DNA of 64,000 nt, taken from assembly GCA_022824405.1 (NCBI GenBank), contig JAJDZZ010000019.1:62001-126000 (forward strand), written 5' to 3'. Under the pieces are notes generated by a model, which worked only from the letters and a program-made list of their open reading frames with translations, had not been told where the DNA came from and did no database searches. Each line of letters begins with the position of its first letter. Position 1 is the first letter of the stretch. This DNA is from Opitutales bacterium. Its GTDB lineage: Bacteria > Verrucomicrobiota > Verrucomicrobiia > Opitutales > UBA2995. This document shows, one piece after another, positions 7,191 through 61,517 of this stretch. A program made the position numbers and the translations under genes.

Positions 7191-7228
7191 CCCCAATTCC
7201 TCATTCCTAATTGGCGCACTTGGGCGCC
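7191..7228 (+). repeat. Type-1 dispersed repeat: ATTCCTMA octamers plus GGCGC hairpin
   Basis: The block reads CCCCAATTCC-TCATTCCTAA followed by the hairpin GGCGCACTTGGGCGCC. It lies in the 145-bp gap between the convergent rpmE and DUF1015 genes. The same leader-plus-hairpin unit recurs at 20414, 30992, 31683, 35921, 37576, 45231, 54683, 55771, 55973 and 61391, and inverted at 20263. Confidence 0.85.
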
Positions 7229-7256: not shown

Positions 7257-8474
7257 TCAGATGGTGTGAATGAACAAACCGCTCCTCAGCTTGGGTTCGA
7301 ACCAGGTGCTCTTGGTCGGCATGATCTTTCCGGCATCCGCGATGTCCATGATTTGCTCGACGCTGACCGGGTGCATGGCAAAGGCCACCGGCCCATCCCC
7401 CCGGCTCACCCGTTTTTCCAGCTCGGTTGGTCCTCGAACCCCGCCAATGAAATCGATCCGGTCACTGGTTCGGGGGTCTTCAATCCCCAGGATGGGTTTA
7501 AGAATGGTCTCCTGCAGCCGGCTGACGTCCAAAACGCGGGCCGGATCGGAAAATTCCCGGTCGGGGAATTGGAGCCCGTACCACCGGTTCTCCAAGAACA
7601 TGCTGACTTGGCCGGCCCGTTCGGGTGAAGGGCCGGCTTGTTCCGCGAGGGGGACGAGCGATTTTAATTTTTGCAAAAACTGTTCCCTGGAATGCCCGTT
7701 CAGGTCGTGGACCAGTCGGTTGTAAGGCAGGATTTTCAGTTGGCTGGCCGGGAAGTTGACCGCGAGGAACCAATTGTAATCTTCCCGTCCCGTATGATGG
7801 GGGTTTGCCGCCTGCCTTTCCTCGCTCAAACGGGCGGCGCTGGCGCTGCGGTGGTGGCCATCGGCCACGTAAGAGATACCGATCCTGGCAAAGGCCTTTA
7901 CCAGCGGACGGGTCCGGACGATTTTCCAAATGGAATGCCTGACCCCATCCGGGGCTGTGAATTCAATGAGAGGAACGTCTTGTTGAATGCGTTCGACCAG
8001 GGTGTCAATTTCCCTGTCGTCCCGATACATCATAAACACCGGTCCCGGGTGTGCGTCGAGGGTTGCGTTGAGGCGGGTGCGGTCCTCAACCTTCCGCGGC
8101 TGAGTCCTTTCATGTTTTTTTATGCGGCCACTGCGGTAATCATCCACGTGGCAAACCGAAACCAGACCCTTTTGCCGGTGATCCCCGATTCCCTGCTCAT
8201 AAACGTAAAGGCTGGGGGACGTCTCCCGGGCCAGGGCCCCCGTTTCCCTCAGCCCGTTCAGGTTGTCCCGCGCCCTTTCGTAAACGGCCGGGGAGTAGGG
8301 ATCTGTTTCCTCGGGCAAATCGATTTCGGCCCGAACAACGCGCAGGAAACTCTTCGGGTTTCCCCGCGACAGTTCCCGCGCCTCTCTCCGGTCGACTACA
8401 TCGTAGGGTGGCGAGGCCACTTCAGAGGCCAGATCGGGCCTGGGAATCAGGCCCTGAAAGGGGCGGATTTTCAT
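7257..8474 (-). CDS. DUF1015 family protein
   Basis: A 405-residue protein starting MKIRPFQGLIPRP, the standard opening of DUF1015 proteins. ASPPYDVVD follows at about 19-27, then KHERTQPRKVEDR near 135, and GISYVADGHHRSASAARL near 220, which contains the family's best conserved DGHHR box. The function of the family is not known to me from sequence; it is widespread next to serine and one-carbon genes in some bacteria, but no such gene is adjacent here. An in-frame extension to 8618 was rejected because family members start at the ATG at 8474. Confidence 0.85.
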   Translation of the reverse strand: MKIRPFQGLIPRPDLASEVASPPYDVVDRREARELSRGNPKSFLRVVRAEIDLPEETDPYSPAVYERARDNLNGLRETGALARETSPSLYVYEQGIGDHRQKGLVSVCHVDDYRSGRIKKHERTQPRKVEDRTRLNATLDAHPGPVFMMYRDDREIDTLVERIQQDVPLIEFTAPDGVRHSIWKIVRTRPLVKAFARIGISYVADGHHRSASAARLSEERQAANPHHTGREDYNWFLAVNFPASQLKILPYNRLVHDLNGHSREQFLQKLKSLVPLAEQAGPSPERAGQVSMFLENRWYGLQFPDREFSDPARVLDVSRLQETILKPILGIEDPRTSDRIDFIGGVRGPTELEKRVSRGDGPVAFAMHPVSVEQIMDIADAGKIMPTKSTWFEPKLRSGLFIHTI

Positions 8475-8620
8475 AAGTTCGGAAGGGAACAAATGGGTTA
8501 TTCGCTGGCAAGTAAAATTGAAACGAATTTCCGGATCGCTCTTCCCCGACCCCTTTTCCCTTGCCCATTGACTCAGCAACGCCATTCGCCTTTGACTCCC
8601 TTGGCCCGGCTGGCACAATC

Positions 8621-12965: not shown

Positions 12966-14456
12966 TTAAAGATTCATCAGGTGTTGGGCGGCGGCATCGG
13001 CCAGGGCAAAGAAGGGTTCGGGATAGATGAACAGGAACATGGTCACCACGGCCGTGAGGGAAAGCGCCACTACGGCGCAGGGATGCGCTTCCTCAACTTT
13101 GGCCTCGAACAGCGAGTCCTCCGGCTTGCAGAAGAAGGCCCGGAAGGCGATGGGAAAGAAATAAGCCGCGTTGAGAAGAGAACTGATCAGCAGAACCGCC
13201 AGCATGGCGTACTGCCCATCCTCCACGGTGCCCCAAAGCAGGTAGATTTTGCTCCAAAAACCTCCGGCCAAAGGAATGCCGATGACACTGAGAGAACCGA
13301 TAAAGAAGGCCGCCATGGTCACGGGCATTCGTTTGCCGATTCCCACCATCTCGCTGATGTACTTTTTCCCCGTGGCCTGGAAGATGGCTCCGGCGCAGAA
13401 GAACAGGGTGATTTTGCCCCAGGCGTGCATGGCAATGTGCATCATGCTTCCGGTTACCCCCTTGGGAGTGAGCAGAGCCATGCCCAATACGATGTAGGAA
13501 AGCTGACCGATGGTGGAAAAGGCCAGCCGTCGCTTCAGATTGTCCTGGGTCAAGGCAATCAGGGAGGATACCACCACGGTGAAAGCGGCGATCCAGGTCA
13601 CGATGACCCCCAGGTTCAAATCGCTCAGAAATTCGATCCCGAAAACGCCCGAATAAACCCGTAAGATGCAAAATACCCCTACTTTTACCACCGCTACGGC
13701 ATGCAGCAAAGCGCTCACCGGGGTTGGGGCCACCATGGCGGCGGGCAGCCAGGAGTGGAGGGGCATGATGCCGGCCTTGGCAAAACCGAAGGTGAGCAGA
13801 AGCAAAAGGACCAGGGCCTCTGTTCCGCCGATCCGGCCCTCTAAAAATCCTCCGGCCACGAAATCCAGGCCTCCGCCCGTTTTGATGAAGATGTATATCA
13901 GGGACGGCAGGACAAATAAAATGGAAGCGGTCAACAGATAGGTTAAATAGGTCCTGCCACCGCTGCGCGCTTCCTTGTCCTGATGATGGGTTACCAGCGG
14001 GTAAGTGGCCAGCGACAACATCTCGTAGAAGAGAAAGAGGGTAAAGAGGTTGGCCGCGAACGCCACCCCGACGGTGGCCGCCAGCGAAACGGCAAAATAG
14101 GAAAAGAACCGCGTTTGGGCGTGCTCCTTGAGCCCGCGCATGTAGCCGATGGAATAGAGCGTGGTGATGATCCAGAGCGATGAAGCCACCAGTCCGAAGA
14201 TCATGCCCAGGGCATCCACCCGAAACGCGATGGCCAGATTGGGTATGATTTCCCAAAGGGTGTATTCTATGGTCGAACCCGCCATAATCGTCGGCAGCAT
14301 CGAGGCAATGAGCCCGAACTTTACTATCCCGGCCACAAAACTGGTCCCTTCCCGCAGGTTGGACCGCCGCCCCAGAAGTATGATGGGGATGACCGCCAGA
14401 AGGGAGACCAGGCTGGCCAGAACGGGGGTAATGCTGATGATGGCAGGCGGGGTCAT
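12966..14456 (-). CDS. mrpD: Mrp antiporter subunit D, second copy (proton-conducting transporter)
   Basis: A 496-residue membrane protein with about 14 hydrophobic segments, homologous to ND2/ND4/MrpD proton-translocating subunits. The TM5 Glu (LFLFYEMLSLATYPLV, about 135-150), TM7 Lys (FAKAGIMPLHSWLPAAM), TM8 Lys (HAVAVVKVGVFCILR) and the late WGKITLFFCAG segment are all intact, so it should be competent for ion movement. It overlaps the upstream mrpD copy by four bases (ATGA) and is followed by the two small WPGF proteins. Confidence 0.9.
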   Translation of the reverse strand: MTPPAIISITPVLASLVSLLAVIPIILLGRRSNLREGTSFVAGIVKFGLIASMLPTIMAGSTIEYTLWEIIPNLAIAFRVDALGMIFGLVASSLWIITTLYSIGYMRGLKEHAQTRFFSYFAVSLAATVGVAFAANLFTLFLFYEMLSLATYPLVTHHQDKEARSGGRTYLTYLLTASILFVLPSLIYIFIKTGGGLDFVAGGFLEGRIGGTEALVLLLLLTFGFAKAGIMPLHSWLPAAMVAPTPVSALLHAVAVVKVGVFCILRVYSGVFGIEFLSDLNLGVIVTWIAAFTVVVSSLIALTQDNLKRRLAFSTIGQLSYIVLGMALLTPKGVTGSMMHIAMHAWGKITLFFCAGAIFQATGKKYISEMVGIGKRMPVTMAAFFIGSLSVIGIPLAGGFWSKIYLLWGTVEDGQYAMLAVLLISSLLNAAYFFPIAFRAFFCKPEDSLFEAKVEEAHPCAVVALSLTAVVTMFLFIYPEPFFALADAAAQHLMNL

Positions 14457-18768: not shown

Positions 18769-20286
18769 ATGAGCCAACCAACTCCGGATACCCACGACTT
18801 GTTTGCCGTTCGTAAAGCCAAGCTGGACCAGATGCGCGCCGATGGATTCGATCCCTTTCGCGCCAACTGGGATCAAACCCACACCTCCGCTTCCGCCAAA
18901 GCGCTCTATGAATTGGGGGAAGAAGACGAAAAGGAAGTTTCGGTGGCGGGTCGGCTTACCAACATCCGTATCATGGGAAAAGCCGCCTTCGCCAAGATCC
19001 TGGACCGGGATGGACGCATCCAGATCTACGCCCGCCGCGATGCATTGGGGGAGGAAGCCTACCGGGCTTTCAAAAAGCTCGATATCGGGGACATCGTCGG
19101 CGTTTCCGGTCCCCTTTTCGTGACCCGGACCGGGGAATTGACCGTGCGCGCCCTGCACTACAAACTGGTTTCCAAGTCCTTGCGCCCTCTGCCCGAGAAG
19201 TGGCATGGGCTCAAGGATAGCGAACAGATTTACCGCAATCGTCACCTCGACCTCATCGTAAACGAGGAGAGCCGGGAGCGGTTCAGGAAACGCAGCGCCA
19301 TCATCTCCTGCATTCGCCGTTTTCTGGAATCGCGCGATTTCATGGAGGTGGAAACATCCACCCTGCACGGAATAGCCGGTGGGGCTGCGGCTCGTCCCTT
19401 TGTCACCCACTTTAACGCTTTGGATTGTGATTTCCACCTGCGCATTGCCCTGGAACTCCATTTGAAGCGGCTTCTGGTGGGGGGATTCGACCGGGTGTTT
19501 GAAATCGGCCGGGTCTACCGCAACGAGGGGCTGGACCGCCGACACAACCCGGAATTCACCATGCTGGAGGTCTACCAGGCCTACAGCGATTACCGGGGCA
19601 TGATGGAGCTGATCCACTCCATGGTTCAAACCGTATGTCATGAGGTATTGGGTTCCACCGCCGTGGTGAATGCGGATGGGGTGGAAATCGAGTTGGCCGG
19701 ACCATGGCGCGAGGCGTCTTATCTGGACCTGATCCGGGAAGCCACGGGGGATTCCCAATGGCACAAACGGTCCAAACGGGAAAAACTGGTCGCTGCCCGG
19801 AAATTGGGCTTGGCCCTCGACCCGGAATTGGAAGATTTCGAGGTGACCAACCAAATTTTCGAGAAACGGGTGGAGCCCCAATTGATACAGCCGACTTTTG
19901 TGACTCATATTCCCCGGGAACTTTGTCCTTTGGCCAAACTGAATGAGGACGATCCAACTGTGCTCGATGTTTTCGAACTTTGCATCGACGGCGTCGAAAT
20001 CGCTCCGGCCTATTCCGAACAAAACGATCCGTTTCTGCAAATGGAGATGTTCGAGCAGCAGGTGGGAGAGGAAACGCAAAATCTGGACCGCGAATTCATT
20101 GCCGCCCTGGAGCAGGGCATGCCTCCCGCCGGTGGCATGGGCGTCGGCATCGACCGGTTGATCATTTTATTGACCGGCGCAGCCAATATTCGCGATACCA
20201 TCCTGTTCCCAGCCCTGCGCCCTTGGCCTGCAAGGGGTCAGAATGAACTAACCACAGAGAGAGAGGCGCCCAAGGGCGCGAATTAG
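18769..20286 (+). CDS. lysS: Lysyl-tRNA synthetase, class II, with repeat-derived C-terminal tail
   Basis: Charges tRNA-Lys. The N-terminal OB-fold tRNA-binding domain covers about 55-150 (VAGRLTNIRIMGKAAFAKI). The class II catalytic core follows: motif 1 region FLESRDFMEVETSTL (about 187-201), motif 2 YRNEGLDRRHNPEFTMLE (about 249-266) and motif 3 GMGVGIDRLIILLTG (about 455-470), ending LFPALRP. The last 20 residues (486-505, from base 20224) are not part of the family. They are encoded by dispersed-repeat sequence, and the TAG stop itself lies inside an inverted type-1 repeat. No Shine-Dalgarno precedes the ATG. Confidence 0.95.
   Translation: MSQPTPDTHDLFAVRKAKLDQMRADGFDPFRANWDQTHTSASAKALYELGEEDEKEVSVAGRLTNIRIMGKAAFAKILDRDGRIQIYARRDALGEEAYRAFKKLDIGDIVGVSGPLFVTRTGELTVRALHYKLVSKSLRPLPEKWHGLKDSEQIYRNRHLDLIVNEESRERFRKRSAIISCIRRFLESRDFMEVETSTLHGIAGGAAARPFVTHFNALDCDFHLRIALELHLKRLLVGGFDRVFEIGRVYRNEGLDRRHNPEFTMLEVYQAYSDYRGMMELIHSMVQTVCHEVLGSTAVVNADGVEIELAGPWREASYLDLIREATGDSQWHKRSKREKLVAARKLGLALDPELEDFEVTNQIFEKRVEPQLIQPTFVTHIPRELCPLAKLNEDDPTVLDVFELCIDGVEIAPAYSEQNDPFLQMEMFEQQVGEETQNLDREFIAALEQGMPPAGGMGVGIDRLIILLTGAANIRDTILFPALRPWPARGQNELTTEREAPKGAN
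20238..20260 (+). repeat. TCAGAATGAACYAACC repeat, copy 1
   Basis: TCAGAATGAACTAACCACAGA inside the lysS 3' end recurs with small changes at 25798-25820 (TCAGAATGAACCAACCGCAG). In both places a CAGAG-rich tract follows. It is part of the intergenic repeat vocabulary of this genome. Confidence 0.6.
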
Positions 20287-20290
20287 GAAT
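20263..20290 (-). repeat. Type-1 dispersed repeat, inverted copy, overlapping the lysS stop
   Basis: GAGGCGCCCAAGGGCGCG followed by AATTAGGAAT is the reverse complement of the ATTCCTAATT plus hairpin unit. The lysS TAG stop (20284-20286) is the CTA of the ATTCCTAATT octamer read backwards. This is the only clearly inverted type-1 copy in the window. Confidence 0.8.
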
Positions 20291-20340: not shown

Positions 20341-20457
20341 TCAACCAAAAGTTGCTTGTCGCCTCAGCGTCTTTGTATCTCTGTGCCTTGGTGCCTCTGT
20401 GCCTTTCCCCTCCCCATTCCTAATTCCTAATTCCTAATTGGCGCCGGAGGCGCCTCC
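20341..20457 (+). repeat. Repeat mosaic between lysS and lolC (GTGCCTCTGTGCC block plus type-1 unit)
   Basis: Bases about 20361-20412 form the CAGCGTCTTTG...GTGCCTTGGTGCCTCTGTGCC block, which is also seen at 35878-35902 and 56038-56075. Bases 20414-20457 form a type-1 unit: three ATTCCTAA octamers and the hairpin GGCGCCGGAGGCGCC. The hairpin ends directly in front of the lolC start. Confidence 0.8.
20446..20450 (+). promoter_or_regulatory. Shine-Dalgarno of lolC supplied by the repeat hairpin
   Basis: GGAGG sits in the loop and right arm of the GGCGCCGGAGGCGCC hairpin, nine bases before the GTG start at 20460. Most other starts in the window have no such sequence. Folding of the hairpin would bury this site, so it could also repress translation. 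Confidence 0.5.
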
Positions 20458-30956: not shown

Positions 30957-31023
30957 CGCCTTCAGCCTTTAGCCTTTCCCCCTCCCTCTCTCCCAATTCC
31001 TCATTGGCGCGCCCCGCGCGCCT
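30957..31023 (+). repeat. CTTCAGC heptamers plus type-1 unit overlapping a gene 3' end
   Basis: GCGCCTTCAGCCTTTAGCC (about 30955-30973) is followed by CCCTCTCTCCC and a type-1 unit at 30992-31023 with the hairpin GGCGCGCCCCGCGCGCC. It covers the last 20 or so codons and the stop of the minus-strand gene ending at 30969. Confidence 0.8.
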
Positions 31024-31379: not shown

Positions 31380-31750
31380 CGATTTGCCAGTGTCTCTTCA
31401 GGTATTGCAGGGATTGCCTGCCTCTCAACCCGCATTTATCGCAAAATTCCTACAATTTTCAAGTGAACCGGAAGGCATTCAGCGCCCGTCCCATCATCAG
31501 GAATGTTGTCGAATCCATGGCAATGTTCAATCCCCTTTCCCATCCATGAAATCGTGATCTCTCCCCCCTTTGCGTTCCTTGCGATCTTTGCGAGATTCCT
31601 CTCTCCCAAAATTCCCTTCCTTTCGATCACGATCACGATTAACCTTCAGCCTTCAGCCTTCAGCCTTTCCCCCTCCCTCTCTCCCAATTCCTCATTCCTC
31701 ATTCCTCATTCCTCATTGGCGCGCCCCGCGCGCCTCTACCCCCTTCATGG
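31380..31750 (+). repeat. 371-bp intergenic repeat mosaic
   Basis: The first 170 bases (31380-31548) show no repeat and no gene. Then follow AAATCGTGATCTC (31549), CCCTTTGCGTTCC...GATCTTTGCGAGATTCCTCTCTCCC (31565-31612), TTTCGATCACGATCACGATTAA in the opposite orientation (31621-31642), CTTCAGC heptamers (31644-31670) and a type-1 unit (31683-31734) with four octamers and the hairpin GGCGCGCCCCGCGCGCC. The unit ends 17 bases before the minus-strand stop at 31751. Confidence 0.85.
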
Positions 31751-35637: not shown

Positions 35638-35996
35638 GGGAAGTTCATTAAACGAGCCTGAAATGGATATTCAAGACAAGGTTCCAAGGAACCCCCTTCG
35701 CGCCTAATGCCTCTCGCCGAAGCCAAATAACCACAAGGGTTAATCGTGATCATGATCGTGATCGATCAAAGTGGATACAAAATAGCCACAAAACGCACAA
35801 AAACACAAAAGCCCCCAGCGTGCCTCTCCCTTCATCCTTCACCCTTCTTCCTTCGCGCCCTTGGGCGCCTCTCCCCTTTGTGCCTCTGTGCCTTTGTGCC
35901 ATCTCGCCTCGGCGAGATCCCATTCCTAATTGGCGCGCCCCGTCGCGCCTCTGCGCCTTGACCTCCCGACCTTCCCTTGTAAGATGCTGGGTTATC
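35638..35996 (+). repeat. 359-bp intergenic repeat mosaic before a sulfatase gene
   Basis: Contents in order: GCCTCTCGCCGAAGCC (35709), TTAATCGTGATCATGATCGTG and further GATC units (35739-35766), AATAGCCACAAAACGCACAAAAACAC, TTCATCC heptamers (35831-35853), hairpin GCGCCCTTGGGCGCC (35855-35869), GTGCCTCTGTGCCTTTGTGCC (35880-35900), CTCGCCTCGGCGAGATCCC (35904-35920) and a type-1 unit with hairpin GGCGCGCCCCGTCGCGCC (35921-35949). The remaining 47 bases to the ATG hold no repeat. No other gene is seen. Confidence 0.85.
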
Positions 35997-37421: not shown

Positions 37422-37626
37422 TGAAGAGGGAAGAGTGGAGAGAGTTAAATCGTGATCGTGATCGAATTCCCTCTCTTGGCGTCTCTTGGCGATCTTTGCG
37501 AGAGTCCCCTACTCTCAGCCTCTCTTCTCTCCACTATCCACTCTTCACTCTCCACCGGGCGCAAGCCCCTCTTTCCCAATTCCTCATTCCTCATTCCTAA
37601 TTCCTGATTGGCGCGCCTTGGCGCGT
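37422..37626 (+). repeat. Intergenic repeat mosaic running into a sulfatase 5' end
   Basis: After the upstream sulfatase stop: AAATCGTGATCGTGATCGA (37447-37465), GGCGATCTTTGCGAGAGTCCC (37489-37509), a CTCTCCACTATCCACTCTTC tract, then a type-1 unit with four octamers and the hairpin GGCGCGCCTTGGCGCG (37576-37626). The last bases of the hairpin are also the first codons of the next gene. A CGTTGCATTGCAAAGCACG segment follows at 37643-37662, similar to 24827-24843. Confidence 0.85.
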
Positions 37627-39039
37627 CTCTGCCTCTTGACCTGCGTTGCATTGCAAAGCACGGTATGTGCCCTTGTGGGCCTCGCCGGGTCGGCCGCAAA
37701 GCCCAACTTCATTCTCGTCTTTATCGACGACATGGGATGGGCGGACTTTTCCTGTTTCGGCAACACCGAGGCCGAGACCCCCAACATCGACCGGTTGGCC
37801 GCCGAGGGAATTGCCTTCGAGCAGTTTTACGTCAACTCTCCCATATGTTCTCCTTCCCGTGTGGCCATTTCCACCGGTCAATACCCATACCGGTGGCGCA
37901 TCGCCTCTTATTTGGCCAGCCGCTCCTTGAATGCCGAGCGAGGTATTGACAATTGGCTGGACCCGGAAGCGCCGCTCTTGGCCCGCTTTCTGAAAAATGC
38001 CGGTTACGCCACCGGCCACTTCGGAAAATGGCATATGGGCGGACAACGCGATGTCGACGATGCACCCCACGTAACCGACTACGGTTTCGATGAATCCCTC
38101 ACCAACTTCGAGGGACTGGGCCCTCGGGTGCTGCCCTTGCGATACGAACCGGGCGGACGTCCGCCGGTTCCCCTCAATCACCGTTCCCATGAGCTTGGGC
38201 ATGGTCCGGTAATCTGGCATGACCGGGCCTACATAACGGAAAAGTTTACCGAGGCGGCCACGACCTTCGCCAGAGTGGCCCTGGCCCGAAATCAGCCCTT
38301 TTACCTGAACCTTTGGCCGGACGATGTTCATACCCCGGTTCACCCTCCCCTGGAGAAGTGGGGTGACGGAGGCAAGCGCCACCTGTATTTGCGAGTTCTG
38401 GAGGCTATGGACGAGCAACTGGGGCCGCTCTTCGATCTGGTGCGTGAACATGACCGACTGCGCGAAAATACCGTGATCCTGGTGTGTTCGGATAATGGCC
38501 CCGAAGTGGGTTTTGGATCGGCCGGCCCTTTCCGTGGACACAAAGCCACCCTCTTCGAAGGAGGGGTTCGATCGCCCCTGGTGGTCTGGGCTCCGGGATT
38601 CATGCGGGAACAGGCCATGGGGACCCGAAATAACCAATCCGTCGTCTCCGCCATGGATCTGGTCCCGTCCCTGCTATCCTTGGCCGGAATTACGACAGAG
38701 ACAAAATTTGATGGTGAAAACCTCCTGGATACCCTGCTTGGACGTGCCACCGCGTCTCGTTCGGCACCTCTTTATTTCCGCCGTCCCCCCGACCGGGAAA
38801 ACTTTCGTCACTACACCGGCTTGCCCGACCTGGCGGCGCGAAGCGGAAGGTGGAAGCTCTATTGCGACTACGATGGAGGGAATCCCCAGCTATACGATCT
38901 CACGCATGATCCGTCCGAATCCGAAGACCTTGCCGCCCGCCACGGAGAGGTGGTGAGAAATATAAGCGCGGGATTATTGGCCTGGAACACCGCTATGCCT
39001 CGGGACAATGGCGCCGAATTTCGCCGGAGACGGCCATAG
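37618..39039 (+). CDS. Secreted sulfatase, formylglycine-dependent, with repeat-derived N-terminus
   Basis: A sulfatase of about 473 residues. The core begins KPNFILVFIDDMGWADFSCFG, with the formylglycine motif CSPSR in ICSPSRVAISTG, then FGKWHMGG, WPDDVHTPVHPP and VCSDNGPE. The start is uncertain. No ATG precedes the core in frame; TTG at 37618, inside the type-1 hairpin, would give a signal-like MARLCLLTCVALQS... segment ending GLAGSAA. TTG at 37486 and GTG at 37675 are alternatives. The signal peptide therefore appears to be encoded by repeat sequence. Confidence 0.85.
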   Translation: MARLCLLTCVALQSTVCALVGLAGSAAKPNFILVFIDDMGWADFSCFGNTEAETPNIDRLAAEGIAFEQFYVNSPICSPSRVAISTGQYPYRWRIASYLASRSLNAERGIDNWLDPEAPLLARFLKNAGYATGHFGKWHMGGQRDVDDAPHVTDYGFDESLTNFEGLGPRVLPLRYEPGGRPPVPLNHRSHELGHGPVIWHDRAYITEKFTEAATTFARVALARNQPFYLNLWPDDVHTPVHPPLEKWGDGGKRHLYLRVLEAMDEQLGPLFDLVREHDRLRENTVILVCSDNGPEVGFGSAGPFRGHKATLFEGGVRSPLVVWAPGFMREQAMGTRNNQSVVSAMDLVPSLLSLAGITTETKFDGENLLDTLLGRATASRSAPLYFRRPPDRENFRHYTGLPDLAARSGRWKLYCDYDGGNPQLYDLTHDPSESEDLAARHGEVVRNISAGLLAWNTAMPRDNGAEFRRRRP

Positions 39040-45184: not shown

Positions 45185-45274
45185 GGCGCTGGAGGCGCCC
45201 TCTGCGTTCTTGTAGGTCTCCCGTTTTAATTCTCAATTCCTAATTCCTAATTCCTAATTGGCGCCCCCGGCGCC
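45185..45274 (+). repeat. Two hairpins and type-1 unit before the DUF3500 gene
   Basis: GGCGCTGGAGGCGCC (45185-45199) is a one-base variant of the GGCGCCGGAGGCGCC hairpin. The full type-1 unit is at 45231-45274: three ATTCCTAA octamers and GGCGCCCCCGGCGCC. The DUF3500 ATG is at 45324. Confidence 0.85.
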
Positions 45275-54553: not shown

Positions 54554-54918
54554 GAAGAAGACCTGACATCTTTCAACACTCGCATTCTTCCTTCCCTAAT
54601 GCCTCTCGCCAAGATCGCCAAGACCGCAAAGAGATCCGGCTTCGCCGGAACAAGAGTTAACGGAGGGGGGACATTCCTGTCCCCCAATTCCTAATTCCTG
54701 ATTGGCGCGCTCCGCACGCCTCTTCCCCCTTCTGCCTCTTAGCATCTCAGTACCTCAGAATCTCAGAATCTCAGAATCTCAGAAACTCTTTCCCCTTTCG
54801 ATCACGATCACGATTAATTTTCATCCTTCATCCTTCATCCTTCTTCCTTCTTCCTTTCCCCTCTCCGCGCCCTTGGGCGCTTCCCCCTCTTTGCGCCTCT
54901 CCGCGCTCTTTGCGAGAT
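54554..54918 (+). repeat. 365-bp intergenic repeat mosaic between convergent genes
   Basis: Contents: the 84-bp block (54602-54685), a type-1 unit with hairpin GGCGCGCTCCGCACGCC (54683-54720), a CTCAGAATCTCAGAATCTCAG tract (54755-54785), TTTCGATCACGATCACGATTAA inverted (54797-54818), CTTCATC heptamers (54822-54850), hairpin GCGCCCTTGGGCGC (54867-54880), GCGCTCTTTGCGAGATTCACTCC (54904-54926). The last element and a following CTTCATCC/CTCGGCGAGACCC segment run inside the 3' end of the minus-strand ABC gene. Confidence 0.9.
54602..54685 (+). repeat. 84-bp two-hairpin block, copy 1
   Basis: It reads CTCGCCAAG-rich lead, then hairpin TCCGGC-TTC-GCCGGA, a short ACAAGAGTTAACGG spacer, then hairpin GGGGGACA-TTCC-TGTCCCCC. 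By eye it differs at four positions of 84 from 61189-61272. A partial copy (first hairpin only) lies at 55825-55872. Here a type-1 hairpin follows immediately, giving three hairpins in series. Confidence 0.9.
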
Positions 54919-55770: not shown

Positions 55771-56091
55771 CAATTCCTCATTCCCAATTCCTCATTCCTC
55801 ATTGGCGCCCTTGGGCGCCTACCGCCTCTCGCCAAGCTCGCCAAGAACGCTAAGGGATCCGGCTTCGCCGGAACTGAATTTAAAATCCGTGATCATCCGT
55901 GAAATCCGTGGTTGATCCCTTCCCCCTTTGCGTCCTTTGCGCTCTTTGCGAGATTCCTCTCTCCCAATTCCTCTCTCCCAATTCCTCATTCCTCATTCCT
56001 CATTCCTAATTGGCGCGCCCCCGCGCGCCTCCTCCCCCCTCTGTGCCTTTGTGCCTCTGTGCCTTTGTGCCTTCTCGCCTTGGCGAGATCC
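55771..56091 (+). repeat. 321-bp intergenic repeat mosaic
   Basis: Contents in order: type-1 unit with hairpin GGCGCCCTTGGGCGCC (55771-55819); partial two-hairpin block GCCAAGCTCGCCAAG...GGATCCGGCTTCGCCGGAAC (55825-55872); ATCCGTGATCATCCGTG and AAATCCGTGGTT (55882-55915); CCCTTTGCGTCC...CTCTTTGCGAGATTCCTCTCTCC (55923-55965); a second type-1 unit with hairpin GGCGCGCCCCCGCGCGCC (55973-56030); GTGCCTTTGTGCCTCTGTGCC (56042-56070); TCTCGCCTTGGCGAGATCCC (56073-56091), which ends exactly where the aldolase stop begins. Confidence 0.9.
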
Positions 56092-60999: not shown

Positions 61000-61517
61000 T
61001 TGTCCGTCAATAATGGAGTTCGGTTTTTTTCCTCAGACCGCCTGTCTCAATACCGAACGAATGCAACATCACCCTCATTCCTCTCGCCAAGACAGAAAAA
61101 AACCACAGAGACCACAGAGGACACAGAGTTGGAAGAAAGACGAACCTCCGACAATCGTGATCTTGATCGTGATCGTGATCGAAAAAAACCTCTCGCGAAG
61201 CTCGCCAAGACCGCAAAGGGATCCGGCTTCGCCGGAACAAGAATTAACGGAGGGGGGACATTCCTGTCCCCCACCAATTACGGATATGGCGCCCTTGGGC
61301 GCCTCAGCGCTTTCCTCTTTGCGTTTCTCTGCGCTCTTTGCGAGATTCCTCTCTCCACTCGCCCCCCTTCTCCCTTTTCAGCCTTCAGCCTAATTCCTAA
61401 TTCCTCATTGGCGCCGGAGGCGCCACCGTCTTCCCCGATTTAATTCTTGAGATTTCGCGCCGCAGGGGGAACGTTAACCCCTTGTCTTCTTAAAGGCTGC
61501 CAGCATTTGTCCATCAA
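61000..61517 (+). repeat. 518-bp intergenic region largely made of repeats
   Basis: 61000-61080 holds nothing recognised. Then AACCACAGAGACCACAGAGG-type repeats (61100-61126), CAATCGTGATCTTGATCGTGATCGTGATCG (61152-61181), the second 84-bp block (61189-61272), hairpin GGCGCCCTTGGGCGCC (61288-61303), CTCTTTGCGTTTCTCTGCGCTCTTTGCGAGATTCC (61318-61352), CTTCAGCCTTCAGCC (61377-61391) fused to a type-1 unit with hairpin GGCGCCGGAGGCGCC (61391-61424). The final 93 bases to the lpxK ATG show no repeat and no gene. Confidence 0.9.
61189..61272 (+). repeat. 84-bp two-hairpin block, copy 2
   Basis: Matches 54602-54685 at 80 of 84 positions by eye. It has the same two hairpins (TCCGGC-TTC-GCCGGA and GGGGGACA-TTCC-TGTCCCCC) and the same lead of CTCGCCAAG units. 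Here it is followed after 15 bases by a GGCGCCCTTGGGCGCC hairpin with no octamer leader. Confidence 0.9.

Follow-up and report, generated by a model that had tools for sequence, protein, structure and literature searches.

The 64,000-nucleotide stretch of DNA analysed here (the window), from a bacterium belonging to the Opitutia (Verrucomicrobiota), carries twelve copies of a short repeat, the type-1 unit. On its pyrimidine strand the unit reads (ATTCCTM)n-ATT-hairpin, as a rule with no more than four heptamers and a GC hairpin of 15–18 nt; the opposite, G-rich strand of the heptamer is TTAGGAA or TGAGGAA. The hairpins have two classes of arms, GGCGCC..GGCGCC and GGCGCGC..GCGCGCC, with loops of 2–4 nt, and their remaining variation lies mostly in the loop. 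The units in the window are:

7196–7228, plus strand: two heptamers, hairpin GGCGCACTTGGGCGCC; the minus-strand gene 7257–8618 has its stop-codon end 28 nt away
20265–20290, minus strand: one heptamer, inverted, lying within the upstream gene at its 3′ end
20416–20454, plus strand: three heptamers, hairpin GGCGCC-GGA-GGCGCC; the orthologous intergenic region of a congener (G001, below) has no unit
30996–31022, plus strand: one heptamer, hairpin GGCGCGC-CCC-GCGCGCC
31687–31734, plus strand: four heptamers, hairpin GGCGCGC-CCC-GCGCGCC
35922–35949, plus strand: one heptamer, hairpin with one extra base (GGCGCGCCCCGTCGCGCC)
37579–37627, plus strand: four heptamers, hairpin GGCGCGCCTTGGCGCGTC, with an uncompensated arm change
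45236–45274, plus strand: three heptamers, hairpin GGCGCC-CCC-GGCGCC
54687–54720, plus strand: two heptamers, hairpin GGCGCGCTCCGCACGCC, with an uncompensated arm change
55773–55819, plus strand: four heptamers (one imperfect), ATT, hairpin GGCGCC-CTTG-GGCGCC at 55804–55819; period 7 in Tandem Repeats Finder
55981–56029, plus strand: four heptamers, ATT, hairpin GGCGCGC-CCCC-GCGCGCC at 56012–56029
61393–61424, plus strand: two heptamers, hairpin GGCGCC-GGA-GGCGCC

By chance, 0.41 matches would be expected in the window at ≤2 mismatches, and shuffled sequences always had fewer than 12. A first-pass annotation of the sequence had counted at least eleven copies. The twelve units include those at 55773–55819 and 55981–56029; the minus-strand unit at 20265–20290 was absent from it. 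This unit overlaps a lysyl-tRNA synthetase-like ORF (18769–20286), the last residues of which (EAPKGAN, window 20257–20290) are encoded by the hairpin, and the stop codon of which comes from the TTAG of the unit. The annotation had described the tandem repeat as an octamer. Tandem Repeats Finder gave a period of 7, with adjacent copies spaced 7 bases, and the repeating unit is the heptamer ATTCCTM.

Distribution and turnover

The genome holding the window (G000; 3.39 Mb, 92 contigs) contains 269 exact copies of the core ATTCCTMATTGGCGC, versus none for a reversed control, and the one congener compared (G001; a draft of 91% completeness) contains 145. No copy of the core was found in 86 other relatives from the family and order, and a longer core pattern, which matched 197 times in G000, was absent from all 387 of the other Verrucomicrobiota genomes sampled. 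Single matches of a 15-mer in unrelated genomes were discounted, being at chance level for 257 billion bases. The type-1 unit is a dispersed intergenic repeat restricted to the genus. The copy statistics given below cover approximately 0.80 Mb of G000 (24%, in part selected because copies were there) and 0.20 Mb of G001.

The units turn over fast between the two species. Genes of G000 and G001 are approximately 90% identical, and intergenic phrase blocks have been gained or lost; a whole block of approximately 330 bp around 54687–54720 is missing from G001. Eight orthologous intergenic regions contain a unit in at least one of the species; in three of them both species have it, and units are not kept at given genes.

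Array length and hairpin conservation

Among 103 arrays in G000, the heptamer number was one in 19, two in 21, three in 22, four in 38, five in 2 and six in 1, so that 38/103 arrays have four heptamers and 3/103 have more. The counts in G001 were 27, 18, 16 and 22 for one to four heptamers, and 6 for five or more; here the single heptamer is commonest, yet there is a sharp fall past four (22 arrays with four, 2 with five). The first-pass annotation had put the number at one to about four and attributed its variation to slippage. Slippage is insufficient alone because array lengths peak or shoulder at four and then stop, without an open-ended decay.

The annotation had further claimed that the hairpin centres differ between copies while the arms stay complementary, and had taken this as arm covariation and a sign that the folded form is under selection or is used by some mechanism. 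Hairpins with differing centres are indeed present in the window. The complementarity of the arms is true in a weak sense, as there are two arm types and most other variation is in the loop. Pairing was analysed in 104 copies from G000 and 99 from G001. Stem pairs 2–5 deviated from consensus in 9/416 cells in G000 and 5/396 in G001 (14/812 overall), and none of these 14 deviations was compensated. Pair 1 was broken in 13/104 and 32/99 copies, respectively. Pair 6 was C-G in 59 copies from G000 and 37 from G001, G-C in 32 and 42, and broken in 13 and 20; it was thus paired in 91/104 and 79/99 copies, versus approximately 52 and 45 in shuffles. This is the sole strong two-sided change, and it represents a subfamily split, for which one old event can be sufficient. 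Uncompensated arm mutations, the observation that the annotation had named as counting against it, therefore occur at pairs 2–5 in both genomes, and compensatory covariation was dropped as a structural proof.

Support for the folded form comes by another route, the conservation of the stem. In copies with an intact 5′ arm, 1.4% of the 3′ arm was non-consensus, compared with 48% of the loop and 53% of the 6 nt beyond the hairpin, so that the loop is approximately 34 times more variable than the stem. Copies were picked on the intact 5′ arm only, and the 3′ arm was placed with ≤2 mismatches; 57/60 copies qualified, making the resulting bias small. Because the 3′ arm varies so little and the loop about as freely as the flanking DNA, the stem is constrained, which upholds the annotation's view of the folded form, although not its covariation evidence. 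Recent spread from few master copies could partly explain the stem conservation. The annotation had also suggested modelling the hairpin: positions 55980–56050 folded as RNA gave −15 kcal/mol (z −5.1), and the adjoining unit folded as DNA gave a z of only −2.0.

Placement and polarity at gene edges

Genes were called with a simple codon-based finder and are approximate, start codons above all. The hairpin end was closer to the gene than the array end in 70/80 intergenic units of G000 (p 3e-12) and 33/36 of G001 (p 2e-7), and the G-rich strand points away from the nearer gene. In G000, 53 hairpins faced the 3′ end of a gene and 27 the 5′ end (p 0.005). The median gap to stop codons was 18 nt in G000 and 16 nt in G001, and that to starts was 57 and 208 nt. 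Several hairpins overlap a stop codon, in which case the TTAG of the first heptamer is the stop, and 4/100 units lie deep inside coding sequence. Where units are consecutive within one intergenic region, the order was minus-plus in 12 cases and plus-minus in none, both genomes combined. Units at both sides of a region numbered 7 in G000 (approximately 6.4 expected) and 5 in G001 (approximately 6.9 expected).

Other phrase families, which have no hairpin, show a similar direction at gene edges, and the polarity is also present at 5′ edges; the polarity therefore need not stem from the hairpin. Phrase families at the two sides of a region showed no matching beyond chance (p 0.08, 0.13), suggesting that the two edges act independently. 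Purine skew drops across intergenic regions from one side to the other in G000 and G001; the drop was unclear in five other genomes, for which samples were small. Orientation by replication strand was rejected because the correlations with GC3 skew were weak (−0.39, p 0.08; −0.45, p 0.05).

Intergenic regions genome-wide, and the window at 55820–56091, draw on a common stock of short imperfect tandem phrases, including CTTTGTGCC, ATCCGTGG, CTTTGCGAGA, CCTTCAGCC and CTCTGTG, with the G-rich strand mostly directed away from the gene edge. A literature search on the phrase sequences themselves returned nothing relevant. One GATC-rich hexamer phrase lacked edge polarity (17 in and 13 out in G000, 12 in and 12 out in G001). 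Same-orientation pairs of units were in excess within contigs (107 versus 84 expected, p 0.006; C11, C15 and C18 of G000).

Related elements and possible roles

Cyanobacterial STRR heptanucleotide repeats are short heptamer arrays scattered between genes; they differ in sequence, and the hairpin cap belongs to the type-1 unit. Rfam gave no match in the window at gathering thresholds. The closest comparison is with the G-rich heptamers (GGGAATC)n of Xanthomonas and (GGGGAYT)n of Nostoc, for which Rehm and colleagues found no function (PMC4692102). As described there, these heptamers share with the type-1 unit low hundreds of arrays per genome, mostly intergenic, a four-unit preference, a G-rich strand leading away from the nearest ORF, and inverted pairs and stop-codon overlaps; on the coding strand they closely follow stops, and on the non-coding strand they sit shortly before starts. 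In contrast to their GGG tracts, the type-1 heptamer has only GG, and a G-quadruplex account of the four-unit preference consequently fits less well here. The constrained, gene-side GC hairpin of the type-1 unit is not described for the Xanthomonas and Nostoc heptamers in the passages of that study consulted, and the host phylum differs from theirs. We place the type-1 unit outside the GGG class, as a hairpin-capped variant of this kind of heptamer repeat, because it has no GGG tracts from which a G-quadruplex could form.

The unit also resembles REP elements of the GTAG/CGTC superfamilies (PMC3733652), which have short GC stem-loops with stems of 6–7 bp and loops of 2–4 nt, and hundreds of intergenic copies in subfamilies differing in stem and loop. 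Unlike these, it has no GTAG/CGTC tag, carries an attached heptamer array and shows no consistent association with a RAYT gene. Mobilisation of the unit by a RAYT, as a REP or REPIN that a hairpin-recognising Y1 (HUH) transposase moves in the form of single-stranded DNA, would fit the hairpin, the high copy number, the intergenic location and the seven Y1_Tnp matches in G000, but is quite improbable. The stem has neither GTAG nor CGTC; ATT adjoins it on one side, and the sequence on its other side varies. G001 has 145 units and no Y1_Tnp match, although a draft of 91% completeness could have lost one, and two-sided units at chance level (7 versus approximately 6.4) give no inverted pairs as one unit. 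The one small RAYT examined (locus L042) has a different flanking palindrome, GTAGGGCRAGAGCATCCYTGCTCTGCC. The Y1 gene at L041 is closely followed by a unit, and one array lies approximately 0.4 kb from the Y1 gene at L038; none was seen at the Y1/RAYT loci L036, L037, L039, L040 and L042. Membership was rejected on the tag and on the lack of a consistent RAYT-gene association. A reverse-transcriptase or telomerase-like source was likewise rejected: RVT_1 gave nothing in G000 and a single partial hit in G001.

Several of these loci have features of their own. L042 (C76 of G000, approximately 1136–1848) is a small RAYT-like gene between GTAG-tagged GTAGGGCRAGAGCATCCYTGCTCTGCC palindromes, the first half of which occurs, at ≤1 mismatch, 39 times in G000, 4 times in G001 and 17 to 23 times in each of three relatives from other genera. 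L038–L041 (ends of C63, C89, C73 and C19) encode related Y1-domain proteins of approximately 340 aa, all close to contig ends, where a multi-copy element that interrupts assembly would be expected to lie. At L036 (C47 of G000, 14096–14326), a Y1 transposase domain lies in frame within a long ORF resembling the HsdR subunit of type I restriction systems.

Our preferred reading, tentative and at less than even confidence, is that the hairpin of the type-1 unit acts in RNA at gene boundaries, the heptamer array being a passenger; the functional steps of this role are all inferred. The unit would be a REP-like parasite or by-product that the genome tolerates, and in part retains, at these boundaries. 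The hairpin would work in RNA as a boundary structure, by protecting 3′ ends or by stalling RNA polymerase or the ribosome just past the stop, and the array would merely be carried along with it. Copies may spread by a route that does not use the RAYT transposase of the genome, such as template switching from one intergenic block to another. E. coli REPs ≤15 nt from a stop codon are reported to stall ribosomes and act as translational regulators (PMC12306157); the palindrome there likewise lies directly past the stop, although its sequence is unrelated.

The units could instead be a neutral by-product, in which slippage lengthens short tandem phrases and template switching carries them from one intergenic block to another, with polarity and stem conservation as side effects of copying. 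We consider this somewhat unlikely. Polarity is common to many other phrase families, whole blocks come and go between species whose genes are approximately 90% identical, and the Xanthomonas and Nostoc study reported no function (PMC4692102), all of which suits such an origin; it accounts poorly for a stem approximately 34 times less variable than the loop and for an array length capped at four, and homogenisation of the arms within a hairpin predicts two-sided changes, which are absent at pairs 2–5. Another way of marking a boundary would be through Rho, which could load on inward-directed RNA that is C-rich and G-poor before the hairpin, the hairpin then pausing polymerase and the genes being insulated. 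The 80 nt before the hairpin are 33% C and 12% G, C is at least twice G in 71–75% of copies and the reverse holds in none, the inward-facing orientation is the only common one, and Rho-terminated fragments of B. subtilis are C- and T-rich (PMC13323073). This version is nonetheless unlikely, with many units within a few nt of the gene edge, which is late for insulation, and with units not conserved at given genes.

Ordinary Rho-independent termination, suggested by stable GC hairpins shortly behind stop codons, is extremely improbable and was rejected for want of a U-run: read in the sense direction, the sequence past the hairpin is AATTAGGAAT, with AATTAGGA in place of the run, and in the opposite direction TTTT occurs within the next 8 nt in only 7/107 copies. 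Very improbable, too, is a polarised DNA-end process that adds the unit and the other purine-rich phrases inward from gene edges, in which each broken end would be extended 3′-ward by short G-rich repeats whose templates are other intergenic blocks, with the hairpin as start or anchor of the copying. Such a process would account for the single G-rich-to-C-rich switch in each intergenic region, like that of head-to-head telomeric arrays.

The geometry and the four-unit preference are already known from the Xanthomonas and Nostoc study (PMC4692102); what is added here is the strongly preserved gene-side hairpin. The G-quadruplex explanation proposed for the repeats of those two genera is weakened by a third phylum that has the same geometry and mostly ≤4 units with GG only. 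The conserved stem and free loop provide a testable handle for distinguishing RNA action at gene boundaries from the trace of polarised copying.
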